A stretch of DNA of 64,000 bases from Spirochaeta thermophila DSM 6192. Its GTDB lineage: Bacteria > Spirochaetota > Spirochaetia > Winmispirales > Winmispiraceae. The stretch covers positions 434,001-498,000 of the forward strand of contig NC_014484.1 of NCBI RefSeq assembly GCF_000147075.1, in the 5' to 3' direction. How positions within the stretch are numbered: position 1 is the first letter of the stretch; each line of letters begins with the position of its first letter. Shown piece by piece: positions 39,034 to 61,232 of this stretch. The notes beneath the pieces were generated by a model. That model worked only from the letters and a program-made list of their open reading frames with translations, was not told the DNA's origin and searched no databases. The position numbers and the translations under genes are program-made.

Positions 39034-39137
39034 AGGGGGCGTGGGCTTCGGATACCGGGTCGGACCGTGGGTGCGGTGTTCCCATGGGTGATCCGGGCGG
39101 GAGGCTCCACTATCACGTGTGTGTGGAGGAACGGTAT

Positions 39138-41213: not shown

Positions 41214-41226
41214 GTGCCCCTCTGCT

Positions 41227-41258
41227 GGAAAGAGCCCCGGCCTGCCGGGGCTCTTTCC
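41227..41258. terminator. Bidirectional terminator between GH42 and galE
   Basis: GGAAAGAGCCCCGG and its perfect complement (14 pairs) with a CCTG loop, between two convergent genes. The A/T ends of the stem serve as short T tracts for both directions. Confidence 0.85.
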
Positions 41259-41271
41259 GTGCACGCTCCTC

Positions 41272-42246: not shown

Positions 42247-42277
42247 GGATCCTCCTTCAAGGGTGGATTTCTTGATG

Positions 42278-42306
42278 AGTATAGCCGAAACGAGGGGCAG
42301 TGGAAA
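42278..42306 (-). promoter_or_regulatory. galE: Promoter of galE
   Basis: Read leftward, TTTCCA (42301-42306) and TATACT (42278-42283) with a 17-base spacer, about 30 bases before the galE start. Confidence 0.65.
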
Positions 42307-42340
42307 TGAAGAGTTCGTACAAAAAGTAAAGAACTGCACG

Positions 42341-42363
42341 AAAAAAGGGGGCCTCGTGCCCCC
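42341..42363 (-). terminator. Intrinsic terminator of leuB
   Basis: Read leftward, GGGGGC-ACGAG-GCCCCC followed by TTTTTT. It separates leuB from galE. Confidence 0.85.
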
Positions 42364-42386
42364 TGTCGATCGATGCGCTTCGCCGG

Positions 42387-43460: not shown

Positions 43461-43597
43461 GTCACCTCCAGGGCTTGTGAGTGTCGGCTGGATTGTTCAG
43501 GTGTAGAATAAATCGAGAAAAAAATCAACATGGACTTATGGAGAGAAACGGAGGAAGGAGAGGGGCGGAGCGCACACGCCCCGCCCCGGAGGGAGGT

Positions 43598-44752: not shown

Positions 44753-44782
44753 AGCGACCTCCATAGTAGTGAGGTGTATACT

Positions 44783-44938
44783 CTGCGCACCGCGCAGGTT
44801 GTACTCCAAAGATAGGGGGTGGGAAGGGATGCGGTAAATGTTCGAAAATTGAAAAAAGTAGCGAAACCTCGAAAATGGAGGAATTCTTACCGAAACATAG
44901 CAAAGCTCTTATATTGCCCGCACCCGGGGAGTCATAAT
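44783..44938. promoter_or_regulatory. Divergent control region of GH53 and GH36-galTK
   Basis: The palindrome CTGCGC-ACC-GCGCAG (44783-44797) lies beside the GH53 start region. CGAAA occurs at 44842, 44862, 44870 and 44891; the last two are 21 bases apart, a typical AraC-family spacing. CATAAT at 44933-44938 is the likely -10 of GH36. No consensus -35 is seen, which fits activator-dependent transcription. Confidence 0.5.
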
Positions 44939-45040
44939 TTCTTCAATAGGTAGACGTACTCACGGGATGAGATGCGGGGAAACTTGACAGATGAGGCCGT
45001 GGGTGCGATAAAGGAGGGGATCCGTACCAAGGAGGAACAG

Positions 45041-46714
45041 GTGAGGCTGTGTGGACTGCACGTGCAGGAAGGGCGTTTCGTCCATTCCTTCGAAGGAGGT
45101 TCTCTCTCGTTCCAGGTGGAACGCATGCCCCTCGGCTGGGTGGTGCGCGGGACCGTGGAGGGGAGGCCGGGCCGGCTCGAGGTGGTGCGTCTGCCGCTCC
45201 GGTTCCCCCTCCTGCTCCAGTCGTGGGAGTCGTGGGGGGCGTGCCCTCGGGTGGATGAGGGGTGGCGGTTCCCCTGGGGCGAGCGGCAGTACGAGGACTG
45301 GCGCTACACCGTCTCGCTCGTGCCCGAGCTGATGCGGGAGGGCGTGGTGAGCGACTACCTGGCCGCATGGGAGGGAGGGCTCGCGGGGTTTCTCACCTCC
45401 CGGTATGCTCACGGGTTCTTCACCGTGGAGGGGGAGGAACTGGTGGGCTACCTGGAGTTCTTCGATCGGGTCTTCGATGGGCCCGTACCCCTGGAGCCCC
45501 TCGTGGTGCTGGAGGGTGGGGAGATCTGGGACCTCCTCGAGGTGTACGCGACCATGGCGGGGAGGGAGAATCGGGCGCGGGTGCCTGCGCACTCGCCTCT
45601 CGGGTGGTGCAGCTGGTACCATTACTTCCTCGACCTCACCTGGGATGATGTTCGGAAGAACCTCGCCCTCGCGAAGGAGTGGCCGTTCGAGGTGTTCCAG
45701 GTGGACGATGCCTACGAGGCGGATATCGGTGACTGGCTCGAGCCGAAGGAGGGGTTTCCTCCGGTGGAGGAGATGGCCCGCACCATACGGGAGGCCGGCT
45801 TCACCCCCGGGATCTGGACCGCGCCGTTCTGCGCCTCTGCGACCTCGCGTCTGTTCAGAGAGCATCCCGAGTGGTTCGTGAAGGAAGGGGGGGTGCCGCT
45901 CGTGGCCTTCAGGAACTGGGGCAAGGACATCCATGCCCTCGACCTCTCGAATCCTGAGGTGCAGGCGCATCTCTCGAGGGTCTTCTCCTCGCTCAGGGCT
46001 GCGGGGTACGGGTACTTCAAGATAGACTTTCTCTTCGCGGGGGCGGTGCCGGGGGAGCGGGTGATGGCCGTAAGCCCGGTGGAGGCCTATCGGATGGGGC
46101 TCGAGACTATCCGTGCTGCGGTAGGGGATGCCTTCATCCTCGGATGTGGTGCCCCACTCCTCCCCTCTGTAGGGTTGGTGGATGGGATGCGGATCGGTCC
46201 GGACACCACCCCCTTCTGGGATCCGGCCGTGCCTGACAACGGCGCTCCTGCTATCCAGTATGCCCTCCGGAATGCGCTCTACCGCTCATTCATGCACCGT
46301 CGCTTCTGGCTCAACGATCCCGACTGTCTCCTCCTGAGGAAGGACCGGATCTCGCTCACCGAGGAGGAGCGGCGGACCTTCGCCCTCACCGCGGGGGCCC
46401 TCGACGGGATGCTCGTGGTGAGTGACGACCTCTCTCTGGTGGATGCGGCGGGGAGGGGACTCCTCGATGAGGCCCTCTCCCTCACGGGGGGGCGGCCGAG
46501 GGTGGGGGACCTCGGAGGGGGCTGCTACGAGGTGGTCTCGGAGGGGACGAGGAGCGGGAGGGTGCGCCTCGTGGTGAACCTGGGGGAGGAGGAGGCAGGA
46601 GGAGTGGCGCCTCACGGTGTGGTGCTGGAGAAGGAGGAGCAGGGTCTCGGGCTTTCCCGCAGGGTGGAGCTTCGGGAGGGTCGGAGGTTCACGTACTACC
46701 ACAGGGAGGAGTAG
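45041..46714 (+). CDS. GH36-type alpha-galactosidase
   Basis: About 557 residues. The catalytic barrel shows GWCSWYHYF, FEVFQVDDAYE, GIWTAPF and the nucleophile Asp in GYFKIDFLFAG (near residue 329). It removes alpha-1,6-galactose from raffinose-family sugars or galactomannan oligomers. There is no signal peptide, so it is cytoplasmic. The GTG at 45041 is favoured by AAGGAGGAACAG just ahead; an ATG at 44972 with a poor ribosome site would add 23 residues. It leads directly into galT. Confidence 0.85.
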   Translation: MRLCGLHVQEGRFVHSFEGGSLSFQVERMPLGWVVRGTVEGRPGRLEVVRLPLRFPLLLQSWESWGACPRVDEGWRFPWGERQYEDWRYTVSLVPELMREGVVSDYLAAWEGGLAGFLTSRYAHGFFTVEGEELVGYLEFFDRVFDGPVPLEPLVVLEGGEIWDLLEVYATMAGRENRARVPAHSPLGWCSWYHYFLDLTWDDVRKNLALAKEWPFEVFQVDDAYEADIGDWLEPKEGFPPVEEMARTIREAGFTPGIWTAPFCASATSRLFREHPEWFVKEGGVPLVAFRNWGKDIHALDLSNPEVQAHLSRVFSSLRAAGYGYFKIDFLFAGAVPGERVMAVSPVEAYRMGLETIRAAVGDAFILGCGAPLLPSVGLVDGMRIGPDTTPFWDPAVPDNGAPAIQYALRNALYRSFMHRRFWLNDPDCLLLRKDRISLTEEERRTFALTAGALDGMLVVSDDLSLVDAAGRGLLDEALSLTGGRPRVGDLGGGCYEVVSEGTRSGRVRLVVNLGEEEAGGVAPHGVVLEKEEQGLGLSRRVELREGRRFTYYHREE

Positions 46715-46715
46715 G

Positions 46716-47690
46716 ATGGAACTTCGCTACAACGTGCTCACCGGTGAGTGGGTGATCGTCTCGGGGGCCACGCAGCGCAGGCCGGTGCAGCCGGGTCAGT
46801 CTGAGTGTCCCATCTGTCCGGGCGGGCTCGAGCTTCCGGGCGACTACGATCTGGTGAGTTTCGAGAATCGCTTCCCTTCGCTCTCGCGTGAGGCCGAAGA
46901 GGTGGAGGATCTCTCGCCGGTGTTGAGGCGGGCGGCGGCGAGGGGGGTGTGTGAGGTGGTGGTGTACACCTCCCGACACGAGGGTGCGCTCCCCGACATG
47001 GAGATCGCCCAGGTGGAGAAGCTGGTGCACATGTGGTGTGATCGGATGAGGGAGCTCTCGTCGTTGTCGTTCGTGGAGTATGTGTTCATCTTCGAGAACA
47101 GGGGGAAGGAGGTGGGGGCCTCGCTCCCTCATCCGCATGGCCAGATCTATGCCTTTCCCTTTCTGCCTCCCAGGGTGAAGGCCAAGGTGGAGGCGGCGGC
47201 GGCCTTCGGCGAGGAGCACGGACGGTGTCCGGTGTGCGCGGTGCTCGAGGAGGAACGGGCCCGGGGCGAGCGGGTGATCCTCGAGGGGCGGCACTTCGTG
47301 GCCCTGGTGCCGTTCTACGCGCGGTTCCCCTATGAGGTGCACATCTATCCCGTGCGGCATGTGGACAACCTCATGTACTTCTCGTTCGAGGAGCGGGCCG
47401 AGTTCGCGTGGATGCTCAAGACCGTGACCGCGGCCTACGATCGGCTCTTCGGCGAGCCGTTTCCCTACATGATGATGTTCTTCCCGGCGCCCCTGAGGGT
47501 GGCTTCTCCCTTCTTTCACTTCCACGTGGAGTTCGATCCTCCCAAGCGGGACAAGGACAAGCTCAAGTGGATGGCGAGTGTGGAGACCGGGACAGGGGCG
47601 TTCATCAATCCCGTGCCGCCTGAGGAGGCGGCCGCACGACTTGCAGCATGTGTGAAGGAGGTTGAGGATGAGGTTCAGGGCGCCCGGTAG
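46716..47690 (+). CDS. galT: Galactose-1-phosphate uridylyltransferase
   Basis: A 324-residue enzyme of the Leloir pathway. The active-site motif SLPHPHGQIYAFP (near 139-151) carries the uridylylated histidine, and CPIC (near 29-32) is part of the zinc site. It swaps galactose-1-phosphate with UDP-glucose. The ATG at 46716 starts 1 base after the GH36 stop, with GGAGGAG ahead. It overlaps galK by 23 bases. Confidence 0.94.
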   Translation: MELRYNVLTGEWVIVSGATQRRPVQPGQSECPICPGGLELPGDYDLVSFENRFPSLSREAEEVEDLSPVLRRAAARGVCEVVVYTSRHEGALPDMEIAQVEKLVHMWCDRMRELSSLSFVEYVFIFENRGKEVGASLPHPHGQIYAFPFLPPRVKAKVEAAAAFGEEHGRCPVCAVLEEERARGERVILEGRHFVALVPFYARFPYEVHIYPVRHVDNLMYFSFEERAEFAWMLKTVTAAYDRLFGEPFPYMMMFFPAPLRVASPFFHFHVEFDPPKRDKDKLKWMASVETGTGAFINPVPPEEAAARLAACVKEVEDEVQGAR

Positions 47691-48720
47691 GGTGAATATC
47701 ATAGGCGAGCACACCGACTACAACGATGGGTTCGTGTTGCCGTTTGCGATCGATCGGTGGATCGAGGTGGAGGTGGAGCCGTCGGATCGGTGGGTGGTGT
47801 GGTCGGAGCGGACAGGGGAGGAGGTGGTCTTCTCTCCGAGCGAGCGGAGGGGCGACTGGTCGGACTATGTGGCGGGGGTGGTGTGGGCCCTGGAGCGGCG
47901 GGGCCTGTCGCTCAGGCCCGCCCGGGTCCTGGTGCGGGCCACGCTTCCGGATGGTGCGGGGCTCTCGAGTTCGGCGGCGCTGGAGGTGGCAACCGGGGCG
48001 GCGGTGTGTGCATCGAGCGGGTACGATCCGGACAGGGATCTCCTGGTGGAGGCGGCGTGGGAGGCGGAGAACGAGTTCGTGGGGATGCGGTGCGGGATCA
48101 TGGATCAGTTCGTGGTGGCGCATGGGCGGGAGGGGCATGCGTTGCTCCTCGATACGAGGACGCGGGAGTTCAGGTTGGTGCCGATCTCCCTTGAGGGGGC
48201 GGAGTTCTTCCTGGTGAACTCGGGGGTGAAGCACGAGCTGGCCTCCTCGGGCTACAATACGAGGCGCGCGGAGTGTGCGGCGGTGCTGGAGCGGCTGGGG
48301 AAGGGGAGCTTCAGGGAGGTGCGGCCGGAGGAGGTGGAGGGGCTGCCGGAGCCGCTTCGCAGGAGGGCGCGTCACGTGCTCTCGGAGAACGAGCGGGTGC
48401 TGCGCACGGTGGAGGCCCTCGAGCGGGGGGATGCGGCGGAGGTGGGGAGGTTGCTCTCTGCCTCGCACGCGAGTCTCCGGGACGACTACGAGGTCTCGTG
48501 CGAGGAGATCGACTGGTTGGTGGAGCGGCTGGGGCGCGTGGAGGGGGTGTACGGGGCGCGGATGGTGGGTGGGGGGTTCGGGGGTTCGGTGCTGGTGGTG
48601 GCACGGGAGGGGGTGGCGGAGGGGTTGGAGGGGGTGCTGGGGGAGTACGGGGCGTGGTGGGGGGCGGAGGCGGGGGTGCTGCGGGTGAGGAGCGCGGATG
48701 GGGTGGGGAGGGTGGGGTAG
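47668..48720 (+). CDS. galK: Galactokinase
   Basis: A 350-residue GHMP kinase: GRVNIIGEHTDYNDGFVLPFA at the N-terminus, PDGAGLSSSAALEVATGA (phosphate loop, about 96-113) and MVGGGFGGSVL near the C-terminus. It phosphorylates galactose freed by GH42 and GH36. The ATG at 47668 has AAGGAGG 6 bases upstream. The 3' part of the coding strand is very G-rich. It ends the GH36-galT-galK operon. Confidence 0.94.
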   Translation: MRFRAPGRVNIIGEHTDYNDGFVLPFAIDRWIEVEVEPSDRWVVWSERTGEEVVFSPSERRGDWSDYVAGVVWALERRGLSLRPARVLVRATLPDGAGLSSSAALEVATGAAVCASSGYDPDRDLLVEAAWEAENEFVGMRCGIMDQFVVAHGREGHALLLDTRTREFRLVPISLEGAEFFLVNSGVKHELASSGYNTRRAECAAVLERLGKGSFREVRPEEVEGLPEPLRRRARHVLSENERVLRTVEALERGDAAEVGRLLSASHASLRDDYEVSCEEIDWLVERLGRVEGVYGARMVGGGFGGSVLVVAREGVAEGLEGVLGEYGAWWGAEAGVLRVRSADGVGRVG

Positions 48721-48734
48721 GGGCGCTCTCGAGA

Positions 48735-48796
48735 GCAATTTTGTCCAAGTCCATCACAAGATCCGCCAAGAAGGGTTTCCCGGATAGGTGTATACT
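48735..48796 (+). promoter_or_regulatory. Activator-type promoter of the GH31 gene (shared motif, copy 1)
   Basis: GCAATTTTGTCCA (from 48735) and a second half-site CAAGAT 21 bases later precede the -10 TATACT (48791-48796). No -35 consensus is present. The distance from GCAAT to the -10 is 56 bases, the same as in copies 2 and 3. Confidence 0.7.
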
Positions 48797-48846
48797 CATA
48801 CCCGTCGGCGTCTTTTTCGTTTCGACAGATCTCTTCAGGAGGCGTG

Positions 48847-51117
48847 ATGAAGTTCACCGACGGGTATTGGCGGATGCGGAAGGGCGTCGTCCCCTTTTTT
48901 CCCCACACGGTGTGGGAGGTGATCCGAAGCGAGCGCGAGGTGAAGGCCCATGTCCTCTGTACCAGGGTGAGGCACAGGGGTGATACGCTCAACGTGCCGC
49001 TCCTCACCGTGCGAATCTGGTCGCCGAGGGAGGACGTCCTGGGCGTGGAGGTGGTACATCACCTGGGAGGGGTGCCCAAGGCCCCCGATCTCCTCCTCCT
49101 GGAGAGGAGGAGCCCCCTTCCCCTTCGGGTGGAGGAGGGTGAGGAGGCCCTGCTGGTCTCTTCCGGGCGTCTCGCGGCCCGCATCTCCACGAGCCGGTGG
49201 GGACTCGAGTTCCTGGGAGACGGGAGACTCCTCACGGACTCGAAGGAGAAGAACCTGGGGTATGTGCGCACCGCGGAAGGGGAGGCCTTCCTCCATGAGC
49301 AGCTCCGGCTCGGTGTGGAGGAGTTGATCTATGGTCTTGGCGAGCGCTTCACCCCGTTCGTCAAGAACGGCCAGGTGGTGGAGATATGGAACGGCGACGG
49401 GGGGACGAGCAGTGAGCTCGCCTACAAGAACGTGCCCTTCTATCTGAGTTCGAGAGGCTATGGGGTGTTCGTGAACGATGCAGGGCCGGTCTCGTTCGAG
49501 GTGGGTTCGGAGAAGGTTTCCAGGGTGCAGTTCAGCGTGCCGGGGGAGCGGCTGGAGTACTTCATCATATACGGACCGCACCCCATGGAGGTCCTCGAGA
49601 AGTACACCGATCTCACGGGAAAGCCGGCCCTCCCTCCCGCATGGTCGTTCGGCCTGTGGCTCACCACCTCCTTCATCACCGACTACGACGAGACGACGGT
49701 GCGGAGCTTTGTCACCGAGATGAAGGAGCGGGGGATCCCCTTGAGCGTGTTCCACTTCGACTGTTTCTGGATGAAGGGGCTCCACTGGACCAACTTTCTC
49801 TGGGACAGGGAGCGCTTCCCCGATCCTGAGGGTCTCCTCGCCTGGCTCAAGGAGCAGGGGGTGCGCTCGTGCGTGTGGATCAATCCCTACATCGCCCAGC
49901 AGTCCGAGATCTTCATGGAGGGGATGGAGAGGGGCTTCTTCCTCAGGCGGCCTGATGGCACGGTGTGGCAGACCGATGACTGGCAGGCGGGTATGGCGAT
50001 CGTGGATTTCACCAACCCCGAGGCGCGGAGGTGGTTCGCCTCGAAGCTCGAACGCCTCCTGGAGATGGGGGTGGACTCCTTCAAGACCGATTTCGGGGAA
50101 CGCATCCCTGTGGACGTGATCTACTACGACGGTTCGGATCCAATGAGGATGCACAACTACTATTCGTTCCTCTACAACCGGACGGTGTTCGAGGTCCTGG
50201 AGAGGAAGAGGGGGAGGGGGGAGGCGGTGTGCTTTGCCCGTGCGGCCACTGCAGGGGGGCAGCAGTTCCCGGTCCACTGGGGGGGCGACTGCGTCTCGAC
50301 GTACGAGTCGATGGCGGAGAGCTTGAGGGGCGGGCTCTCCCTCATGCTCTCGGGCTTCGGGTTCTGGAGCCACGACATAGGAGGGTTCGAGAAGACCGCC
50401 ACGCCCGACCTCTACAAGCGGTGGGTGGCCTTTGGCCTGCTCTCCTCGCACAGCAGGCTTCATGGGAACGAGTCCTACAGGGTGCCGTGGCTCTTCGACG
50501 AGGAGGCAGTGGAGGTCCTGCGGTTCTTTACCGCACTCAAACACCGGCTCATGCCCTATCTGTACACCGTGGCGGTGGAGGCCCACCGGAGGGGCGTGCC
50601 TGTGATGCGCCCCCTCATCCTCGAGTTCCCCGAAGATCCAGGGTGCCGCTATGTGGATAGGGAGTACCTCCTCGGTCCTGCCCTCCTCGTGGCGCCGGTC
50701 TTCGGTGAGGAGGGGGAGGTGGCCTTCTACCTCCCGCCGGGGCTGTGGAGACACCTCCTCGACGGGGAGGTGCTTGAGGGGCCTGGGTGGTTCGCGCGCC
50801 GGTACGACTACTTCTCGCTCCCCCTCTTCCAGCGGGAGGGCTCGGTCCTGGTGCTGGGAAAGGAGGATGCGGCGGTCTACGACTACACCAGGGGGGTGGT
50901 CTGCGAGGCCTTCCTCCCTCGGGAGGGACGCATCCTCTGGAGTCAGGTGGATGCGCGGGGAGAGCCGGCCGCCTCTCTCTCGCTCGAGAGGAGAGGGGAC
51001 AGGGTGATCTTCGCCTGTGAGGGGTTCTCGGAGTCGAGGCTGGTGGTCCACGGGGGAGAGGGGGAGGGGAGGATGGAGTGCGGCCTCTCGGAGGAGGGAG
51101 AGGTGAGGATGGGGTGA
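48847..51117 (+). CDS. yicI: GH31 alpha-xylosidase (YicI type)
   Basis: A 756-residue cytoplasmic enzyme. The nucleophile D415 is in DSFKTDFGERIPVD, the same motif and nearly the same position as in E. coli YicI. GFGFWSHDIGGFE near 502-514 and the N-terminal beta-sandwich are family features. It takes alpha-1,6-xylose from the non-reducing end of xyloglucan oligomers. AGGAGGCGTG lies before the ATG. It is expressed from the motif promoter at 48735, so it should be co-regulated with the GH3 operon. Confidence 0.9.
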   Translation: MKFTDGYWRMRKGVVPFFPHTVWEVIRSEREVKAHVLCTRVRHRGDTLNVPLLTVRIWSPREDVLGVEVVHHLGGVPKAPDLLLLERRSPLPLRVEEGEEALLVSSGRLAARISTSRWGLEFLGDGRLLTDSKEKNLGYVRTAEGEAFLHEQLRLGVEELIYGLGERFTPFVKNGQVVEIWNGDGGTSSELAYKNVPFYLSSRGYGVFVNDAGPVSFEVGSEKVSRVQFSVPGERLEYFIIYGPHPMEVLEKYTDLTGKPALPPAWSFGLWLTTSFITDYDETTVRSFVTEMKERGIPLSVFHFDCFWMKGLHWTNFLWDRERFPDPEGLLAWLKEQGVRSCVWINPYIAQQSEIFMEGMERGFFLRRPDGTVWQTDDWQAGMAIVDFTNPEARRWFASKLERLLEMGVDSFKTDFGERIPVDVIYYDGSDPMRMHNYYSFLYNRTVFEVLERKRGRGEAVCFARAATAGGQQFPVHWGGDCVSTYESMAESLRGGLSLMLSGFGFWSHDIGGFEKTATPDLYKRWVAFGLLSSHSRLHGNESYRVPWLFDEEAVEVLRFFTALKHRLMPYLYTVAVEAHRRGVPVMRPLILEFPEDPGCRYVDREYLLGPALLVAPVFGEEGEVAFYLPPGLWRHLLDGEVLEGPGWFARRYDYFSLPLFQREGSVLVLGKEDAAVYDYTRGVVCEAFLPREGRILWSQVDARGEPAASLSLERRGDRVIFACEGFSESRLVVHGGEGEGRMECGLSEEGEVRMG

Positions 51118-51224
51118 GCCTCCCACGTAGGGCGGCCGGGTGGGGGCCGGGGTCGCCCGGTGCTTCGAGGGGTCCGTTCTGCGGCTGGATCCTTCCTTGA
51201 ACGACGAAGGGCCGTAAGGGGAGT

Positions 51225-51251
51225 GAAGGGGACGGCGTGGCCGTCCCCTTC
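51225..51251. terminator. Hairpin between the GH31 and GH3 genes
   Basis: GAAGGGGACGG / CCGTCCCCTTC, 11 pairs with a 5-base loop. There is no T run, but it is in the right place to end the GH31 transcript. Confidence 0.5.
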
Positions 51252-51276
51252 ATAGTTACAGCGGGTGGCGATGAGA

Positions 51277-51338
51277 GCAATATCGTCCAACTTTTAGCCA
51301 ATATCTTCCTAGCCAGGGTTCCGGGCGGGTGGTACAAT
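51277..51338 (+). promoter_or_regulatory. Activator-type promoter of the GH3-AraC-ABC operon (shared motif, copy 2)
   Basis: GCAATATCGTCCA (from 51277) and half-site CAATAT 21 bases later precede the -10 TACAAT (51333-51338), again 56 bases from GCAAT. No -35 consensus. Confidence 0.7.
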
Positions 51339-51369
51339 CGTGTCACAGGATGCGATTGGTGAGGTGTCT

Positions 51370-54198
51370 GTGAGCAGAGAGGTGTCTCCCACAAGGGAAC
51401 GATTCAGGGATCCAGACCTCCCCCTCGAGGAGCGGGTCTCGGACCTCATCTCGAGACTCACCCTGGAGGAGAAGCTCTCCCTCATCCCTGTGAGGCAGGC
51501 CGGTGTGCCGCGGTTGGGGATCGATCCCTACCCCATAGGTGGGGAGGCGGCGCACGGGGTGGCGTGGGTGGGGGAGGCCACGGTGTTTCCCCAGCCGGTG
51601 GGGCTCTCGTGTACCTGGGACAAGGACCTCCTCCGTCGGGTCGGTGAGGTGATAGGGGTGGAGGCAAGGGCCTACAGGGATATCCTGGGGACCGAGTTCG
51701 GCCTTACCCTCTGGGCCCCCACCGTGGACCTGGTGAGGGATCCCCGGTGGGGAAGGACCGAGGAGGCCTACGGCGAGGACCCCTGCCTTGCCTCGGAGCT
51801 CGCGGGAAGCCTGGTGAGGGGGATGCAGGGCGATCACCCCTTCTACCTCAGGATGGGGGCCACCCTCAAGCACTTCTTCGCGAACAACAACGAGACCGAC
51901 AGGGGCATCTCCTCTTCGGAGATCCATCCCTGGCTCATGCACAACTACTACCTCGAGGTCTTCAGGCGGATCATCGAGAGGGCCCGGGTCACCTGTATCA
52001 TGACCGCCTACAATGCGGTGAACGGTACCCCCTGTCTCCTGCATCCTGCGGTGAGGGAGCTCGTGAAGGAGCGGTGGGGCCTGCCGGGGTTCGTGGTGAC
52101 CGATGCCGCCGACTTCGGGATGACCGTGGGTATGCACGCCTATTTCGAGGATCACGCCGAATCCATCGCCGCCACGCTTCGCGCCGGGGTGGATGCCCTT
52201 ACCGAGGATGACCGCACCCTCGTGATCGAGTCCCTTCGGCGCGCCCTGGAGCGGGGGCTCCTCGAGGAAAAAGACCTCGATGCCGCGCTCCGGAACATCT
52301 TCCGGATACGGTTCAGGCTCGGCGAGTTCGATCCACCGGAGCGGAATCCCTATGCCGGGATCACGAGGGAGGCCTTGTGTGCCCCTTCCCACACCCGCCT
52401 CGCGCGGGAGGCGGCCCGGAAGAGCGTGGTCCTCCTCAAGAACGAGGGCATCCTCCCCCTGAGTGCCTCCTCTCTCCGGAGGGTGGCGGTGGTGGGCCCC
52501 CTCGCCGACGAGGTACACACCGACTGGTACAGCGGCACCCTCCCCTACGTGGTGACCCCGCTCCAGGCCCTCAAGGAGCGGCTCCCCGGGGTGGAGGTGT
52601 GGTACGAGGAAGGCTCCTCCAGGGTGCGGCTCCGCTCCGCAGCCTACGGGGGGTACCTTGCCGCGGACGAGGAGGGGAACCTCTTCCTCACCTGTCCGGG
52701 TCAGGCCCCGGGTACCGAGAGCCTCTGGGACTGGCTCGACTGGGGATGGGGAAGCCACATCTTCCGCTCTGTGCGGTCGGGCCGGTACCTCACGTGTGCC
52801 CCCGAGGGAACCGGCCTCTCGGCCACGGCCCGGCAGGTGAGGGGCTGGTTCGTCCAGGAGGTCTTCACCCTGGAAGAGCGGTGGGGAGGTCTCTGTGCCC
52901 TCCGTACCTGGCACGGGAAGTACCTCTCCTGTGATGCACAGGGTGGAGTCCACCTCTCCGACCGGGCCGAATCCATGCGGGAGCTCTTCGAGCTCGAGCC
53001 GATACGTTCTGGAGAGGAGCAGGTGCGGGCGTGTGCCGAAGCGGCCGACGTGGTCCTTGCCTTCATGGGGAACAATCCCTTCATCAACGGGAAGGAGACG
53101 GTGGACCGGCCCGATCTCGCCCTCCCCCCACTCCAGCACCGGCTGGTCCGTACGGCCTTCGAGGCGAACCCCCGTACCGTGCTCGTGCTCATCGGGAGCT
53201 ACCCGTTCGCCGTTCCTTGGGAGGATGCGCACCTCCCGGCTCTCCTCTACTCCTCCCACGGCGGACAGGAGATGGGGCAGGCCCTCGTCGATGTGCTCCT
53301 CGGCGAGGTCTCTCCTGCCGGGAGGCTCAGCCTCACCTGGTATCGTTCCTCTTCCGTGCTCTCGAGCATATTCGACTACCAGATCCACAAAGGCCGAAAG
53401 TCCTACTGGTATGCCCGGGAGGAGGACGTGCTCTACCCCTTCGGCTACGGCCTCTCCTATACCACGTTCGAGTACACAGGCATGAGGTGCGCGCCCCTCC
53501 GGGCCACCCCCGAGACCGGGGTTGAGGTTTCCTTCAGGGTGAGGAACGTGGGGCCCGTGGCCTCCGACGAGGTGGTGCAGTGCTACCTCGTCCCCCCTGA
53601 GGGGCCGTTCTCTCCCAAAAAGGTACTCGTCCGGTTCGATCGATGCCACTTTGCCCCACGAGAGGAGAAGGAGATCTCCTGGCGTCTTACGGCGGAGGAC
53701 TTCTCCTTCTGGCATCCCGTGGCCGAGGCCCGTCTCCCCCTTCCCGGGAGGTGGCGGATCCAGGTGGGCTCCTCTTCGCGTCACATCCACCTGGAAGAGG
53801 TGATCACCCTCGAGGCACCCCCCCTCCCTCACTGGACCCCGGGCCGGCGCATCCCGGTGGCCGGGGGTGAGGACGTGGAGGGGTGCGCCTATGTGGAAGG
53901 GGAGGGCCTCCATCCTGCTCTCCGGCCCCGGGGAGGGGGCCGGGCCCTCGTGCGGTGCGGGGTCCTCGAGTGCAGTGGGGACGTCCACGAGCTCCACGTC
54001 CTCGTGCGCAACGGTGCGGAGACCACCGACCTCGTGGTGCGCTGGGGCTCACACGAGGTGCGCTTCCCGAAGGCCCTTCCTTTCACCGGCGGCGAATGGA
54101 AGGAAGTCTCCCTGGAGTGCTCCCTCGCGCCGGGCAGACATGATCTCTCCATCTCCTGGAGAGGGGAGGCCGAGATCCTATGGATCCTCTTCACCTGA
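51370..54198 (+). CDS. GH3 beta-glucosidase/beta-xylosidase with fascin-like insertion
   Basis: A 942-residue cytoplasmic enzyme. The nucleophile Asp is D245 (FVVTDAADFGM), and KHFFANNNE is present upstream. Residues about 418-545 are an inserted beta-trefoil/fascin-like region (YGGYLAAD, SGRYLTC, HGKYLSCD) inside the C-terminal domain, where other GH3 enzymes carry a PA14 domain; it may shape substrate choice. A GTG start at 51370 is chosen since the promoter -10 lies at 51333-51338, which excludes the GTG at 51340. It would finish xyloglucan or cello-oligomers after GH31. Confidence 0.85.
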   Translation: MSREVSPTRERFRDPDLPLEERVSDLISRLTLEEKLSLIPVRQAGVPRLGIDPYPIGGEAAHGVAWVGEATVFPQPVGLSCTWDKDLLRRVGEVIGVEARAYRDILGTEFGLTLWAPTVDLVRDPRWGRTEEAYGEDPCLASELAGSLVRGMQGDHPFYLRMGATLKHFFANNNETDRGISSSEIHPWLMHNYYLEVFRRIIERARVTCIMTAYNAVNGTPCLLHPAVRELVKERWGLPGFVVTDAADFGMTVGMHAYFEDHAESIAATLRAGVDALTEDDRTLVIESLRRALERGLLEEKDLDAALRNIFRIRFRLGEFDPPERNPYAGITREALCAPSHTRLAREAARKSVVLLKNEGILPLSASSLRRVAVVGPLADEVHTDWYSGTLPYVVTPLQALKERLPGVEVWYEEGSSRVRLRSAAYGGYLAADEEGNLFLTCPGQAPGTESLWDWLDWGWGSHIFRSVRSGRYLTCAPEGTGLSATARQVRGWFVQEVFTLEERWGGLCALRTWHGKYLSCDAQGGVHLSDRAESMRELFELEPIRSGEEQVRACAEAADVVLAFMGNNPFINGKETVDRPDLALPPLQHRLVRTAFEANPRTVLVLIGSYPFAVPWEDAHLPALLYSSHGGQEMGQALVDVLLGEVSPAGRLSLTWYRSSSVLSSIFDYQIHKGRKSYWYAREEDVLYPFGYGLSYTTFEYTGMRCAPLRATPETGVEVSFRVRNVGPVASDEVVQCYLVPPEGPFSPKKVLVRFDRCHFAPREEKEISWRLTAEDFSFWHPVAEARLPLPGRWRIQVGSSSRHIHLEEVITLEAPPLPHWTPGRRIPVAGGEDVEGCAYVEGEGLHPALRPRGGGRALVRCGVLECSGDVHELHVLVRNGAETTDLVVRWGSHEVRFPKALPFTGGEWKEVSLECSLAPGRHDLSISWRGEAEILWILFT

Positions 54199-54224
54199 GG
54201 ACGAGAGACGAGAGGGGTATACGC

Positions 54225-55142
54225 ATGGAACCGATCCTTCACCCTGAGGACAAGGAAGACCGCAAGCACGGGACCGACGACTTTCCCTTCGCCCTCTATG
54301 ACAACTACCTGCGGTATCCCTACTTCAGCCGCTACACCATAGACCCCCACTGGCACGAGGAGATGGAGTTCCTCCTGGTGGTGCGGGGCAACGCCAGGGT
54401 GCTCAGGGACGGTGAGTTCGTGGAGGTAGGCGAGGGAGAGGCCCTCTTCATCCCTCCCAGGACCTTTCACGCCGCCGAATCGCTCGACCACCAGCCCTTT
54501 CACTTCATCGCCCTGGTCTTCCATCTCGACCTCCTGGAGGGAGAGGTCCAGGACGTGTGCCACAAGCGGTACTTCACGGGCATCAAGAAGCGGCTCCTCT
54601 CCTTCCCCGGGGTGATCTCGCGCAAGACCCTCTGGGGAAAGGCCATCCTCCATGAGCTCATGGAGGTGGTGGATCTCGCAGACCACAAGGGACCGGGGTA
54701 CGAGCTGGGTATCAAGGGCGCCCTGTTCAAGGTCTTCTCCCTCATCTTTTCGCACGGGGTGGTCCAGAAGTCCGAAGTGGCGGGCGATGTCTATGCGGTG
54801 GAGAAGATCCTCCCCGCGCTCGAGTACATCAAGGAACACTACCAGGAGAACCTCTCAGTGGATGACCTGGCGAGGCTGGTCTACCTCAGCAAGTACCACT
54901 TCATCAGGGAGTTCAAACGCCTCACGGGAAGGACCCCGGTGGAGTTCATCAACCGTTACCGGGTTCACAAGGCCATGGCCATGCTCATCGAAACCGACGA
55001 GAAGGTCCTCAACGTGGCCTACGAGTGCGGTTTCAACGATATGAGCTACTTCATCCGGCTCTTCCACAGGTTCACGGGCCTCACCCCGGCCCAGTACCGG
55101 CGGGCCTATGCACCACGGGGGGTGAAGACCGGCGGAAGGTGA
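54225..55142 (+). CDS. AraC-family transcriptional regulator with cupin domain
   Basis: A 305-residue protein. A cupin-like sugar-binding domain (about 30-110, PHWHEEMEFLLVVRG) precedes an AraC DNA-binding domain with two helix-turn-helix units (about 200-295, LARLVYLSKYHFIREFKRLTG and VAYECGFNDMSYFIRLFHRFTG). It lies inside the GH3-ABC operon and is the first candidate for the activator that binds the 21-base direct repeats at the three shared-motif promoters. The ATG at 54225 is 26 bases after GH3. Confidence 0.9.
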   Translation: MEPILHPEDKEDRKHGTDDFPFALYDNYLRYPYFSRYTIDPHWHEEMEFLLVVRGNARVLRDGEFVEVGEGEALFIPPRTFHAAESLDHQPFHFIALVFHLDLLEGEVQDVCHKRYFTGIKKRLLSFPGVISRKTLWGKAILHELMEVVDLADHKGPGYELGIKGALFKVFSLIFSHGVVQKSEVAGDVYAVEKILPALEYIKEHYQENLSVDDLARLVYLSKYHFIREFKRLTGRTPVEFINRYRVHKAMAMLIETDEKVLNVAYECGFNDMSYFIRLFHRFTGLTPAQYRRAYAPRGVKTGGR

Positions 55143-55178
55143 GGGCACGGAGCGAGACCCCATGAAAGGAGATGAGTG

Positions 55179-56135
55179 ATGCCTGCGAATGGAGCGCACC
55201 TCGTCAAGACTTCGTCCCTTAAAAAGCACACCTCCTGGTGGGCCACGGTGGTCAACCAGCGGTACCTCATCCTCATGTCGTTCCCCTTCGTGCTCTGGGT
55301 GATTGTCTTCAGGTACCTGCCCCTCTGGGGCTGGACCATGGCCTTTCAGGACTACAAACCGGGACTCCCCTTCTTCCAGCAGAAGTGGGTGGGACTCAAG
55401 TACTTCATCATCCTCTTCGAGGATCCCAAGTTCTGGGAGGTGATGAGGAACACCCTCGCCATGAGCCTCCTGGGCCTCGCCTTTGGCTTCACCCTCCCTA
55501 TCGTGCTCGCCCTCTTCCTCAACGAGATACGGCACATGCTCTTCAAGCGGGTGATCCAGACCATTACCTACCTGCCGCACTTCCTCTCCTGGGTGATCGT
55601 GGCGAGTCTCGTCTTCCAGATGCTCGGTCCTTCGGGGCCCCTCAACGAGTTTCTCCTCTCCCTGGGGGTGGTGAAGGAGCCGGTCCCCTTCCTCACGAAG
55701 CCTCACTATTTCTGGTGGGTGGTGACCTTCGCCGATGTCTGGAAGGAGATAGGGTGGAACTCCATCATCTTCCTCGCGGCGATCGCCGGGATCGACCCTG
55801 AGCTCTACGAGGCGGCCACCATGGACGGGGCAGGGAGGTTCAGGAAGATGTGGCACATCACCCTCCCGGGGATCATGCCCACGGTGATCGTGATACTCAT
55901 CATGAGTATCGGGAACCTCATCAACATCGGTTTCGAGAAGCAGTTCCTCCTGAGGACCCCCCTCACCAAGGAGTATGCGGACGTCCTCGACCTGTATGTG
56001 CTCGACTACGGGATAGGGAGCGGGAGGTACGCCCTGGGCACGGCCGCGGGGATCTTCAAGTCGGTGGTGAGCCTCATCCTCCTCTTCACGGTGAATCGCT
56101 TGAGCAAGAAGACCACAGGCATGCGGGTGCTGTAG
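55179..56135 (+). CDS. Oligosaccharide ABC transporter permease (LplB type)
   Basis: A 318-residue permease with about six membrane segments and the EAA loop EAATMDGAGRFRKMWHITLPGI (about 213-234). The ATG at 55179 follows AAAGGAGATG. Together with the next gene it should form the import channel for xyloglucan or cello-oligomers. Like the first transporter in the window, no ATPase is encoded with it. Confidence 0.9.
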   Translation: MPANGAHLVKTSSLKKHTSWWATVVNQRYLILMSFPFVLWVIVFRYLPLWGWTMAFQDYKPGLPFFQQKWVGLKYFIILFEDPKFWEVMRNTLAMSLLGLAFGFTLPIVLALFLNEIRHMLFKRVIQTITYLPHFLSWVIVASLVFQMLGPSGPLNEFLLSLGVVKEPVPFLTKPHYFWWVVTFADVWKEIGWNSIIFLAAIAGIDPELYEAATMDGAGRFRKMWHITLPGIMPTVIVILIMSIGNLINIGFEKQFLLRTPLTKEYADVLDLYVLDYGIGSGRYALGTAAGIFKSVVSLILLFTVNRLSKKTTGMRVL

Positions 56136-56145
56136 GAGGTACGTG

Positions 56146-57072
56146 ATGCGGTCAGTCGGGGTGAAGGACTACTACAGAAGGGCGAAGCTGGGTGATACGC
56201 TCTTCAATGCCTTCAACTATACGGCCATGATCCTCCTGGGGATCGCAACCCTCTATCCCTTCCTCAACGTCCTCGCCATATCCCTCAACGATTCGGTGGA
56301 CACGGTGCGGGGAGGTATCACCATCTTTCCACGGAAGTTCACCCTGGAGAACTACGCCTACCTGTTCAGCTATCCGAGTGTGGTGAGGGGTGCAGTGATG
56401 TCCGTGCTGAGGACCGCAGTGGGGACGGTGACGGGCCTGGTCTCCACCGCGATGGTGGCCTATGCGATAAGCCGAAAGGACTTCTTCGCACGCAGGTTCG
56501 TCACCGGGATCTTCGTGATGACCATGTACATAAGCGCGGGGCTCATCCCGGACTACATGCTCATCCGATCGCTCGGGCTCATCAACAACTTCCTGGTGTA
56601 CATCCTCCCCGGGCTCATCAGCGCCTTCAACGTGATCGTCCTGCGCTCGTACATCGAGGGACTGCCGTACGAGCTCCAGGAGTCGGCCAAGATCGATGGG
56701 GCCAACGACTTCGTGATCTTCTCCCGGGTGGTGATGCCCCTCTGCCTCCCCGTGCTCGCCACCATCGCCCTCTTCATCGCCGTGGGGCACTGGAACTCGT
56801 GGTTCGACACCTACCTCTACGCGAGCTCCAACAAGTACCTCACCACCCTCCAGTTCGAGCTCCAGAAGATCCTCACCAACGTCCAATCCCAGGCCGCAGC
56901 CTCGGCCCAGGATATCTACAGCTATGCCCTCACCGAGCAGGCCCGGAGGGTCTCCCCTGAGTCCATTCGCATGGCGATGACCATCGTGGCCACGGTGCCC
57001 ATCCTCTGTGTGTACCCCTTCCTTCAGAAGTACTTCACCAGGGGACTGGTCCTTGGGGCCTTGAAACAGTAG
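56146..57072 (+). CDS. Oligosaccharide ABC transporter permease (LplC type)
   Basis: A 308-residue permease with about six membrane segments and the coupling loop QESAKIDGANDFVIFSRVVMPL (about 181-202). GTAGGAGGTACG leads the ATG at 56146, 10 bases after the partner permease. Confidence 0.9.
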   Translation: MRSVGVKDYYRRAKLGDTLFNAFNYTAMILLGIATLYPFLNVLAISLNDSVDTVRGGITIFPRKFTLENYAYLFSYPSVVRGAVMSVLRTAVGTVTGLVSTAMVAYAISRKDFFARRFVTGIFVMTMYISAGLIPDYMLIRSLGLINNFLVYILPGLISAFNVIVLRSYIEGLPYELQESAKIDGANDFVIFSRVVMPLCLPVLATIALFIAVGHWNSWFDTYLYASSNKYLTTLQFELQKILTNVQSQAAASAQDIYSYALTEQARRVSPESIRMAMTIVATVPILCVYPFLQKYFTRGLVLGALKQ

Positions 57073-57120
57073 GCGAGCCGCCCGTCGGGCGGAATGTATA
57101 CCTTAACCAGGAGGTGTCTG

Positions 57121-58791
57121 ATGAAGAGACTGCTGCCTCTCCTCCTCCTTATCCCCATGGTGCTGTCCGCCACGGGTCAGGGGGAGAAAGCCGCCGAGAC
57201 TACGGTCGGCACCAAAACGCCGATCACGTTCACCATGTTCAACGCAGAGGTGAACCCCAACTGGGACGAGTTCCAGAGCCCGGTGGCCCAGGAGATCAAG
57301 AAGCGCACCGGGGTGACGCTCGAGATCGAGTTCGCGGTGGGCGATCCGAAACAGAAGCTCGCGGTGATGGCTGCGAGCGGCGACTACCCGGATCTGGTCT
57401 ACGCCAAGGGGGATCTCAACCTGCTCAAGGATGCGGGGGGCATCCTCCAGCTCGACGAGCTCATCGATCAGTACGGTCCCAACCTCAAGAAGATGTACGG
57501 GCAGTTCTACGATCGCCTCAGGTGGAGCAAAGAGGACCCGCACATCTACTACGTGGGAAGCTATCCTGTCCATGACCCGATCATCGTGCCCAACGGACTC
57601 TTCTGGCTCCAGCACGCCGTGGTCCTCGAGCTGGGCTTCCCCCGCCTCGAGACCCTCAAGGATTTCGAGAATGCCATCAAGACCTACTATGCGAAGCATC
57701 CCACCATCAACGGACAGCCCACCATCCCCATGACCTTGCTTGCGGACGGATGGCGGTTCCTCATCTCGGTGACCAACCCGGCATGGGCCGCCACCGGTGG
57801 GTCCGATGATGGCGAGTGGTACGTGGATCAGGAGACCTTCAAGGCCGTGCGCCACCACACCAGACAGATCGAGCGGGAGTACTTCAGGTGGCTCAACCAC
57901 ATGTGGAACGAGGGGCTCCTCGACAGGGAGAGCTTCATCCAGAAGTACGACCAGTACAAGGCCAAGATCGCCTCGGGGAGGGTGCTCGCCCTCGCCGATG
58001 CCGCGTGGGAGATCTCGGAGCCGGTGACCGCGTTGCGACAGGCGGGGATGGAGGAACGGATGTACGGGCAGTACCCCGTGGTCATCAGTGAGGATGTGGT
58101 ATGTAGGGTGAACCAGTCGCCTGGGTATTCGGGCGGATGGGGCGTCGCGCTCACCGTGGACTGCAAGGACCCCGCACGGGCCATCGAGTTCCTCGACTGG
58201 ATGGCGACCGAGGAGGCCCAGATACTCACCCACTGGGGTATCGAGGGAGTGCACTGGAAGTACGACGAGAACGGCAAACGGGTCTTCCTCCCCGAGATCG
58301 ACCGGATGCGGCGGACCGACCCCGCCTTCTCCAAGAAGACGGGCATAGGGAACTACAGCTATCCCTTCCCGCAGTGGGGCCGCATCAAGGACTCCACCGG
58401 AAACTACATCATGCCCGACAGCGAGCCCGAGGACCAGATCAAGAACTACACCGAGGTGGAGAAGAAGGTCCTCGCCGGCTACGGAGCCAGGATGTGGATG
58501 GATCTCTTCCCCGGTCCGGATGAGTTCCCGCCCAAACCCTATGGGGCTGCGTGGATGATCAGGATAGACGATCCCGATCTGGTGGCCATCGACAACAGGG
58601 TGCGTGACGATATAGGGATGAGGAGGATTCCAGAGGCCATCATGGCTCCGCCTGAGAAGTTCGACGAGATCTGGGACGCCTATCTCAAAGAGATGGAGGA
58701 GGCAGGTCTGCCCAGACTCACCGAGGAGTTCAACCGCCTCCTGAGGGAGCGTATAGAGCTCTGGAATCCGGGCTTCACCTTCCCGGAGTGA
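57121..58791 (+). CDS. Extracellular oligosaccharide-binding protein (LplA type)
   Basis: A 556-residue secreted protein with a signal peptide (about 1-20) and no lipobox. The size and position after two permeases mark it as the binding component of the second LplABC-like importer. AGGAGGTGTCTG precedes the ATG at 57121. An intrinsic terminator directly after it ends the five-gene operon GH3-AraC-permease-permease-binding protein. Confidence 0.88.
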   Translation: MKRLLPLLLLIPMVLSATGQGEKAAETTVGTKTPITFTMFNAEVNPNWDEFQSPVAQEIKKRTGVTLEIEFAVGDPKQKLAVMAASGDYPDLVYAKGDLNLLKDAGGILQLDELIDQYGPNLKKMYGQFYDRLRWSKEDPHIYYVGSYPVHDPIIVPNGLFWLQHAVVLELGFPRLETLKDFENAIKTYYAKHPTINGQPTIPMTLLADGWRFLISVTNPAWAATGGSDDGEWYVDQETFKAVRHHTRQIEREYFRWLNHMWNEGLLDRESFIQKYDQYKAKIASGRVLALADAAWEISEPVTALRQAGMEERMYGQYPVVISEDVVCRVNQSPGYSGGWGVALTVDCKDPARAIEFLDWMATEEAQILTHWGIEGVHWKYDENGKRVFLPEIDRMRRTDPAFSKKTGIGNYSYPFPQWGRIKDSTGNYIMPDSEPEDQIKNYTEVEKKVLAGYGARMWMDLFPGPDEFPPKPYGAAWMIRIDDPDLVAIDNRVRDDIGMRRIPEAIMAPPEKFDEIWDAYLKEMEEAGLPRLTEEFNRLLRERIELWNPGFTFPE

Positions 58792-58812
58792 TCCGGGGTA
58801 CGGTACCTCCTG

Positions 58813-58843
58813 CCCTGCCGGTCTCCACCCGGCAGGGTTTTTT
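58813..58843 (+). terminator. Intrinsic terminator of the GH3-ABC operon
   Basis: CCCTGCCGG / CCGGCAGGG, 9 pairs, followed by TTTTTT. Confidence 0.9.
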
Positions 58844-58867
58844 GTGGAATCGTGGTATATGGGCAGC

Positions 58868-58929
58868 GCAATTTTGTCATGATATTCCGCAACATATGCA
58901 AAGACCACATCTCCCTGGGGGCTCATAAT
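58868..58929 (+). promoter_or_regulatory. Activator-type promoter before the GH74 remnant and GH12 (shared motif, copy 3)
   Basis: GCAATTTTGTCAT (from 58868) and half-site CAACAT 21 bases later precede the -10 CATAAT (58924-58929), again at 56 bases. The transcript runs through the GH74 remnant into the GH12-CBM64 gene. Confidence 0.68.
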
Positions 58930-58952
58930 AGAAGAGATCTCGGCGAGAATGA

Positions 58953-59105
58953 GGTGTCTATGAGGGGGCAGGGGGCTGGCATACCCAGTAGTGTGGAGTG
59001 ACGATGTGTATCGCGGGTGACCGTCGGGTCTACGGACGGGTCTACACGGGCACCGACGGGAGGGGGATCGTCTACTGGGAGCTCGAACGGCTCCCGGGTC
59101 TGTAG
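58953..59105 (+). pseudogene. Remnant of a GH74-type xyloglucanase gene (C-terminal tail)
   Basis: The frame ending at 59105 reads GDRRVYGRVYTGTDGRGIVY, which matches the conserved end of GH74 enzymes (GDPRVYGRVYxGTxGRGI). Upstream the frame is broken by a TAG at 58989-58991 and there is no room for the other roughly 700 residues. A good ribosome site (GAGGTG) with ATG at 58960 opens a 13-codon frame only. So the promoter, start region and tail remain after a large internal deletion. The family call rests on this short motif. Confidence 0.6.
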
Positions 59106-59148
59106 AAGGCCACCTTCCGCCGTAGGCGGATGGATCATATGCCTTCTG
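59104..59148 (+). promoter_or_regulatory. Stem-loop just before the GH12 ribosome site
   Basis: AGAAGGC (59105-59111) pairs with GCCTTCT (59141-59147), and inside it CCGCC-GTA-GGCGG forms a second hairpin. The structure ends 3 bases before GGGAGGTG, the ribosome site of the GH12 gene. It may be a processing signal or a translation control element. Confidence 0.5.
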
Positions 59149-59158
59149 GGAGGTGTTC

Positions 59159-60265
59159 ATGAAACACACGAAACCCCTGTGGGGTGCAGCCCTCGCAGCA
59201 CTCGTGCTGCTGGGAGGGTGCACCGAGGTCGTATCTCCCGGTGCAACCGGTGAGATCTCATCCCGAGCGGTATGGGAGTCCTGGGACCAGTGGGCAACGT
59301 GGACCGATGGGGAGTACACCCTCTACAACAATGTCTGGGGAAGCGGGGCAGGATCACAGAGGATATGGGCGAACGCCTACTACGACTGGGGAGTGTGGGC
59401 GGACCATCCGGATACAGGCGGGGTCAAGTCGTATCCCAACGTGAGCAGGATGATCAACATAAAGATAAGCGAGATTGATAGCCTCACCAGCTCCTTCACC
59501 ATCGCCACCAGGCCCTCCGATGGTGCCTACAACTCCACCTACGATGTGTGGCTTGGAGACTACGCCTACGAGGTGATGCTCTGGATGAACCATGTGGGAG
59601 AGGTGAAACCCATCTCCTATGAGTGGGACAGTTCTGGTAATCCTGTGCCAGTCTACTCCGATGTCACGGTGGGCGGCCACACGTGGAATGTGTACAGGGG
59701 TACCAACGGTTCCCAGGAGGTCTTCTCGTTCGTGAGGACCTCTGCCCTGGATACAGGCACGGTGGACATAAAGGCAATCCTTGAGTGGCTTCGAGATGCG
59801 GGTTGGATAGGAGATGTGGAGGTGGATCAGCTGCAGTTCGGATGGGAGATCACTTCTTCGCCGGGGGGTCGTGACTTTGCCATAAGCGCGTACGAGGTGA
59901 ACCTCTCCACCTCTGGGACAACGCCCACCCCAACTCCCACGTCCACCCCCACTCCTACCGCCACCCCTACGCCAACTTCCACTCCCACTCCGACCCCCAC
60001 CCCGACCAGCGGTGAGTATCGTGAGATCGAGCTTCCCTTCACCTACGACGGGCCGGGGGAGTATTTCTGGAAGACCGATGACTTCTCAACTGAGGTGGAC
60101 TGGGGGAGGTACGTGAACTCCTGGAATCTCGAACTTCTCGAGATCAATGGGAACGACTACACCAATAGGTGGGTGGCGCAACACCAGGTGCCTCCTGCAG
60201 CCGATGGCTACTGGTACATCCACTACAAGGGATCGTTTGACTGGTCCCATGTGGAGATGAAGTAG
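59159..60265 (+). CDS. GH12 endoglucanase/xyloglucanase lipoprotein with CBM64
   Basis: A 368-residue protein. Lipobox LLGGC (C21) anchors it outside. The GH12 domain covers about 40-250, with YNNVWG, GVKSYPN, the nucleophile E138 (YEVMLWM) and acid/base E230 (FGWEIT). A Thr-Pro linker (254-284) joins a C-terminal module (286-368) with several exposed Trp residues that matches CBM64, a cellulose-binding family known from Spirochaeta thermophila. It cuts beta-1,4-glucan or xyloglucan at the cell surface. GGGAGGTG precedes the ATG at 59159. Confidence 0.88.
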   Translation: MKHTKPLWGAALAALVLLGGCTEVVSPGATGEISSRAVWESWDQWATWTDGEYTLYNNVWGSGAGSQRIWANAYYDWGVWADHPDTGGVKSYPNVSRMINIKISEIDSLTSSFTIATRPSDGAYNSTYDVWLGDYAYEVMLWMNHVGEVKPISYEWDSSGNPVPVYSDVTVGGHTWNVYRGTNGSQEVFSFVRTSALDTGTVDIKAILEWLRDAGWIGDVEVDQLQFGWEITSSPGGRDFAISAYEVNLSTSGTTPTPTPTSTPTPTATPTPTSTPTPTPTPTSGEYREIELPFTYDGPGEYFWKTDDFSTEVDWGRYVNSWNLELLEINGNDYTNRWVAQHQVPPAADGYWYIHYKGSFDWSHVEMK

Positions 60266-60379: not shown

Positions 60380-60424
60380 TTTACAACAGCCCGAAAGGGG
60401 GTATAATGATATGTGATATATCAC
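60380..60424 (+). promoter_or_regulatory. Promoter and palindromic operator of the 60.4-kb lipoprotein gene
   Basis: TTTACA (60380-60385) and a perfect TATAAT (60402-60407) with a 16-base spacer. The perfect 12-base palindrome GTGATATATCAC (60413-60424) sits at the expected transcription start, a typical repressor position. Confidence 0.7.
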
Positions 60425-60441
60425 TTCCAGGAGGTTGCGTC

Positions 60442-61167
60442 ATGAAAAGGTCATTCAGCGTTATCGTTTCGGCCCTGACTGTCATCTCCCTCGTGTTCCT
60501 TGCGGGAGGGTGCATGTCGGTTCCGCATGTCTCACTCGAGGGAAAGTCGGTGCTCTACCTCACCAAGGTCTCCTCGGGGGAGCTCACCGAGACGGACAAG
60601 ACCATCATCGCCCATCTGGAATCCCTGGGGATGGTGGTCACACCCATGAACGCAAAGGAGTCGAAGGCCGACGATGCCCAGGGCTACGATCTCGTCTATG
60701 TGAGTGAGGTCGTCTCCTCCAGTCATGTGGGGAACAAGTTCAAGGACGTAGCGGTACCCATGGTCTCTACCGAGCACTACATCGCCGACGACATGGGATT
60801 TGCAGAGCCCGAAGAGGGTAAAGGGTATGGAAAGGCCGAGTATGCCTACAAGGAACTCGTGATCAAAGATCCCTCCCACCTCCTCGCGGCAGGGCTCTCC
60901 GGTACGGTACAGATCTATACCGACTATGGGAGCGTGGGTTTCTCCCGCCCCCAGGGTGAGGTACAGGTGGTTGCGGTGGCACCCGACGATGAATCCATGG
61001 TGCTCATCTACGGATACGAGAAGGGGAGCAAGGACATGCATGGTGATGTGGTCCCTGCACGGAGGGTGTTCAGCTTCCTCTTCGAGGGGATGGAATCCCT
61101 CCTCACTGATGAAGGATGGAAGCTCTTCGATGCGGCGTTCATGTGGGCCCTTGAAGGATCTGAGTGA
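60442..61167 (+). CDS. Lipoprotein, possibly with ThuA/glutamine-amidotransferase-like fold
   Basis: A 241-residue protein with lipobox LAGGC (C24). After the signal, alternating strands and helices (SVLYLTKV, YDLVYVSEVV, VPMVSTEHYIADDMGF) and the end LFDAAFMWALEG resemble ThuA-like domains, which are often found with carbohydrate enzymes. No catalytic residues can be named, so the call is tentative. AGGAGGTTGCGTC lies before the ATG at 60442. It is followed 65 bases later by the pectate lyase-like gene. Confidence 0.55.
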   Translation: MKRSFSVIVSALTVISLVFLAGGCMSVPHVSLEGKSVLYLTKVSSGELTETDKTIIAHLESLGMVVTPMNAKESKADDAQGYDLVYVSEVVSSSHVGNKFKDVAVPMVSTEHYIADDMGFAEPEEGKGYGKAEYAYKELVIKDPSHLLAAGLSGTVQIYTDYGSVGFSRPQGEVQVVAVAPDDESMVLIYGYEKGSKDMHGDVVPARRVFSFLFEGMESLLTDEGWKLFDAAFMWALEGSE

Positions 61168-61178
61168 TTCACTTCGGA

Positions 61179-61206
61179 TATGGGGCACAGAGATCTGTGC
61201 CCCATA
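61179..61206. terminator. Hairpin between the ThuA-like and pectate lyase-like genes
   Basis: TATGGGGCACAG / CTGTGCCCCATA, 12 perfect pairs with a 4-base loop, without a T run. It lies 26 bases before the ATG of the next gene and may act as a stabiliser or partial terminator. Confidence 0.5.
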
Positions 61207-61232
61207 AAAGTATGAGACAAGGAGGCGAAGGT

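Follow-up and report, generated by a model that had tools for sequence, protein, structure and literature searches.

The window analysed here is a 64,000-nucleotide stretch of the Spirochaeta thermophila DSM 6192 genome (NC_014484.1, positions 434,001 to 498,000), which carries three carbohydrate-related units on its forward strand (Table 1). As proposed in a preliminary description of this DNA, these are a GH31 gene; a GH3-araC-ABC transporter operon; and a GH74 remnant with GH12-CBM64. Pfam searches and comparison with a sister species support the gene assignments. PDB 9PMY, the homologue of the solute-binding protein, is Athe_2052, which has been shown to bind xyloglucan oligosaccharides (PMC12710961). 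The listed GTG start of the GH3 gene lies 2 bases after the proposed -10, making a downstream start likely. Downstream of promoter 3 the sister species has, in order, a 182-residue ORF, an intact GH74 gene, and GH12-CBM64. Comparison of window positions 58930-59110 with this arrangement reveals deletion of the 182-residue ORF and most of GH74, leaving the GH74 C-terminus. As a result, the conserved promoter 3 now reads almost directly into GH12-CBM64.

Two further ORFs follow GH12-CBM64 (60406-62633), with a weak right-handed beta-helix match as their sole Pfam signal. Elsewhere in the window, positions 34232-48717 hold a second carbohydrate cluster comprising ABC transporter parts, a dCache-AraC gene (36757), GH42, GH53, an alpha-galactosidase, galT, and galK. 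This cluster likely serves galactan or galactoside use under a separate regulator.

Table 1. Features of the three units, in window coordinates.
Feature	Coordinates	Strand	Basis or remark
Candidate AraC-type site 1 (two half-sites, 21-bp register)	48735..48770	+	Upstream of GH31; 41-bp conserved island in sister
-10 TATACT, GH31 promoter	48791..48796	+	56 after GCAAT
GH31 alpha-xylosidase, YicI type	48847..51117	+	Pfam; E. coli YicI structures matched at 888 bits
Candidate AraC-type site 2	51277..51312	+	Upstream of GH3-araC-ABC operon; 93% identical in sister
-10 TACAAT, GH3 operon	51333..51338	+	Same hexamer in sister at +56
GH3 beta-glucosidase-like enzyme	51340..54198	+	Pfam; GTG start listed
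AraC-family regulator, cupin + HTH	54225..55142	+	Pfam and homologues; ORF open from 54180
ABC sugar permease	55176..56135	+	Pfam
ABC sugar permease	56143..57072	+	Pfam
Solute-binding protein, Athe_2052 (9PMY) homologue	57094..58791	+	682 bits over 524 residues
Candidate AraC-type site 3	58868..58903	+	Upstream of GH74 remnant/GH12-CBM64
-10 CATAAT, GH74 remnant/GH12-CBM64 promoter	58924..58929	+	Same hexamer in sister at +56
GH74 xyloglucanase C-terminal remnant	58990..59110	+	GH74 intact in sister
GH12-CBM64, predicted endo-xyloglucanase/endoglucanase	59153..60265	+	Pfam; xyloglucan-specific GH12 structures among matches

Each unit is preceded by two half-sites in direct repeat. The first reads GCAATTTTGTC at 48735 and 58868 and GCAATATCGTC at 51277, while the second reads CAAGAT at 48757, CAATAT at 51299, and CAACAT at 58890, each 21 bases past the start of the first CAAT. 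With the G of GCAAT as reference point, all three sites have the second CAANAT at +22 and the -10 at +56. The motif positions, the 21-base spacing, and the 56-base distance given in the preliminary description hold to the base, as does its report that no -35 consensus is present. The hexamers at the -35 position are poor in each case (AAGAAG, TAGCCA, and AAGACC at sites 1, 2, and 3, respectively). The half-site noted there is present but proves longer, as aligning the copies gives (A)GC-N7-(T/C)CCAA(G/C), ~15–17 bp per copy in a 21-bp repeat. The second copy is more degenerate than the first and ends ~3 bp inside the expected -35 place.

Direct half-sites in a 21-bp register adjoining the -35 position form, as read from the DNA, a class II activator arrangement. 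The araI1-I2 sites of E. coli AraC at araBAD are direct repeats of a 17-bp half-site, TAGC-N7-TCCATA, in a 21-bp register, and a few bases of the second copy fall within the -35. The spirochaete half-site GC-N7-(T/C)CCAA resembles this sequence and shares the direct 21-bp register, whereas sequence similarity between E. coli AraC and the protein encoded at 54225 is confined to the HTH domain. The closeness of the sites to the core promoters could also suit a repressor or another regulator family, such as a dimeric LacI- or GntR-type protein. This is very unlikely, as the repeats are direct rather than inverted, lack symmetry, keep a 21-bp register, and lie where the -35 would be, upstream of the -10. 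Tandem repeats lying upstream of promoter elements, as at the spirochaete sites, are reported for AraC-type activators in a published survey (PMC8579813).

Across the complete 2.47-Mb genome, only the three window sites match the two-part pattern perfectly. They lie within 10.2 kb, each before a carbohydrate operon rather than scattered at random. The next best matches, at 2791 and 879221, carry two mismatches, lack a proper second half-site, and were rejected. Within the window, the CAANAT...CAANAT pair occurs twice against an expectation of 0.26. Leave-one-out weight matrices were built by removing each site together with its orthologue from training. The omitted site scored 29–41 bits and ranked directly behind the trained sites, and non-site positions reached at most 13.9 bits in 82 kb scanned on both strands.

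A profile of six sites from the source genome and the sister (R1), searched against the genome, found one new significant match at genome position 506465-506526 (18.7 bits, E 0.003). This fourth site, which the sister also retains, lies 8.5 kb outside the window in front of a GH95 gene. The match is functionally sensible, since the GH95 family includes alpha-fucosidases that cleave terminal fucose from xyloglucan. Profile R2 necessarily finds the sites on which it was trained, and hence only the GH95 match of R1 is independent. R2 yielded no further credible site in the genome, and its match at 2450310 (14 bits) was dismissed as probably coding sequence. Together, the GH74/GH12, ABC import, GH31, GH3, and GH95 genes make up, by annotation, a near-complete xyloglucan pathway. 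Scans of the six other CBM64 loci revealed no comparable site with a correctly spaced -10, which suggests a xyloglucan rather than a cellulose regulon. The initial suggestion of a xyloglucan/cellulose regulon is upheld for xyloglucan, by gene content and the GH95 target, and not for cellulose.

The sister species, compared at loci L090, L091, and L100, keeps all three window sites with 0–1 mismatches each. Its GH31 site is aligned by blastn as a separate 41-bp island (window 48731-48771) with unalignable flanks, beside which there is 1.3 kb of extra DNA. Over the 42-bp site, identity to the sister is 86% for GH31, 93% for GH3, and 88% for GH95, compared with 25%, 36%, and 43%, respectively, over the 56 bases upstream. 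Conservation is weaker at the GH12/GH74 site (69% vs. 59% upstream), but its CAAT and CAACAT cores are retained and its -10 is identical. The -10 lies at +56 in 4/4 sites of the source genome and in 4/5 of the sister, the exception being the sister GH31 promoter, where the best hexamer is TAGAAT at +57. In a genome of the same family that lacks a close orthologue of the AraC protein, the pattern has no match with fewer than two mismatches. That the motif was chosen after the sites were seen might suggest that the three promoter regions are alike by chance. We find this hardly credible given that the pattern is unique genome-wide, scores highly in the leave-one-out test, is conserved in the sister, and has an independent fourth match before GH95.

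The sister also encodes a 369-residue protein between galK and GH31 (L090:6544-7779), with a signal-peptide-like start and no Pfam match. Its gene, absent from the source genome, has its own perfect two-half-site match with TATCAT at the right distance. The protein is possibly an outer-membrane barrel acting as an oligosaccharide porin, the barrel having been read from its sequence by eye only.

The AraC gene that the preliminary description placed inside a controlled operon does lie in the GH3 operon and encodes a cupin and a double HTH. Pfam identifies the N-terminal ligand domain of the sugar-responsive AraC/XylS subgroup (AraC_binding 7e-12, Cupin_2 6e-11) and the C-terminal double HTH (HTH_18 E 2.7e-25, HTH_AraC E 3.5e-25). 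The start at 54225 is preferred over 54180 because homologues begin there. Pfam detects no receiver domain in the protein, and its operon contains no sensor kinase gene. The genome encodes approximately nine other AraC-type HTH proteins. Apart from the sister, the closest relatives found are in Bacillota, at 36–39% identity compared with at most 32% in other spirochaetes.

The association of regulator and site extends across phyla. In 16 Bacillota loci, homologues of the 54225 protein (30–39% identity) are encoded divergently to an orthologous GH31 (55–62% identical), and in some of these GH3 or GH94 lies near the pair. Read toward GH31, 15 of the 16 intergenic regions contain CAANAT-N15-CAANAT, a 21-bp register, allowing one mismatch at most. 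In these 15, a hexamer agreeing with TATAAT in 5–6 of 6 bases lies exactly 55 bases past the first C (+55), equivalent to +56 from GCAAT in the window. In the sixteenth, from Thermobacillus, the best hexamer is one base further. Shuffles of single regions satisfied a looser form of both criteria in 0.03–0.7% of cases; as the 16 regions come from approximately four lineages they do not represent 16 independent tests. The outer half-site letters are AT-rich in Bacillota (CAAAATA), unlike the spirochaete GCAATnnYGTCC, and the spirochaete weight matrix found nothing convincing over the whole Bacillota loci. The Bacillota site was seen only in GH31-AraC intergenic regions and in the GH31 orientation. 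It is absent from control locus L084, where GH31 is not adjacent to its AraC gene, and present with one mismatch and TATAAT at +55 in control locus L078, where the divergent AraC gene is ~1 kb away. The Bacillota GH31 promoters (L061-L076) also carry a strongly conserved TCAATATnATTATA overlapping the -10, which creates additional CAANAT spacings of 31 and 52.

These data bear on the identity of the regulator. The sites could be genuine AraC-type activator sites bound by another AraC protein, for example dCache-AraC at 36757, as the genome encodes several AraC-HTH proteins and one lies 12 kb upstream. This is unlikely, because the 54225 araC gene is inside a target operon and its Bacillota homologues adjoin GH31 with the same site geometry, while the dCache-AraC gene adjoins GH42, GH53, and other galactan-type genes. 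From its place in the GH3 operon and its Bacillota homologues beside GH31, the 54225 protein is likely the regulator of the sites. The cross-phylum geometry further raises the prospect of an ancestral module, consisting of an AraC cupin protein and a 21/55-bp promoter at GH31, that kept its geometry while passing between Bacillota and Spirochaetota. In the spirochaete it would have grown from serving a single local target into a dispersed regulon for the whole xyloglucan pathway, with a possible outer-membrane protein among the targets of one species. We give this scenario even odds.

As a whole, the data are best explained by a single-component AraC/XylS-family class II activator (54225-55142) of a xyloglucan regulon, a reading that is very probably right (roughly 85%). 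The AraC-type activator layout suggested in the preliminary description is supported by the genome-wide specificity, phylogenetic footprinting, the GH95 target, and the Bacillota geometry. The 54225 protein is predicted to bind tandem direct half-sites with the consensus GC-N7-(T/C)CCAA, 21 bp apart. With the downstream half-site ending where the absent -35 would lie, RNA polymerase would be recruited in a class II manner. The activating ligand may be an oligosaccharide or sugar derived from xyloglucan. Induced GH12-CBM64, together with GH74 in the sister, would cut xyloglucan outside the cell as secreted enzymes, and the induced ABC transporter would import the resulting oligosaccharides. These would be dismantled by the induced GH31 alpha-xylosidase, GH3, and GH95, a probable alpha-fucosidase. 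As the regulator's own gene lies in the GH3 operon it may be switched on at the same time, creating positive feedback.

Regulators of this kind are already known from Bacillota, both predicted AraC-type ones for alpha-xylosidase and two-component ones for xyloglucan use (PMC8579813, PMC4780118). The AraC-family XylQ of Caldicellulosiruptor (Anaerocellum) bescii is predicted to control a cytoplasmic alpha-xylosidase locus beside an alpha-xyloside/xyloglucan ABC transporter (PMC8579813). That prediction limits XylQ to xylSQ and assigns the transporter to a two-component system of its own, AxuRS (PMC8579813). Linkage to an alpha-xylosidase gene is the one feature common to XylQ and the 54225 protein. 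In Ruminiclostridium cellulolyticum, whose xyloglucan gene cluster has been described (PMC4780118), XygS/XygR positively controls genes for xyloglucan import and catabolism (ABC transporter, GH31, GH3), as cited in PMC8579813. As summarised there, XygS/XygR resembles the 54225 protein in its AraC-type DNA-binding domain and its xyloglucan target genes. However, it is a two-component system with a sensor, whereas the 54225 protein is a single cupin-HTH protein without a receiver domain. Unlike the XygS/XygR targets named in that summary, the spirochaete sites also precede GH74/GH12 and GH95. The open-access literature searched holds no description of how the xyloglucan locus of Spirochaeta thermophila is regulated, consistent with the earlier view of the regulon as undescribed.

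The locus provides a nearly complete and testable xyloglucan regulon for a thermophilic, polysaccharide-degrading spirochaete. What the transporter imports and what GH95 does can be predicted from the regulon, whose promoters may be of use as inducible promoters for thermophiles. As the regulator-site pair is recognisable across two phyla, it may allow annotation of many undescribed AraC proteins encoded beside alpha-xylosidases.
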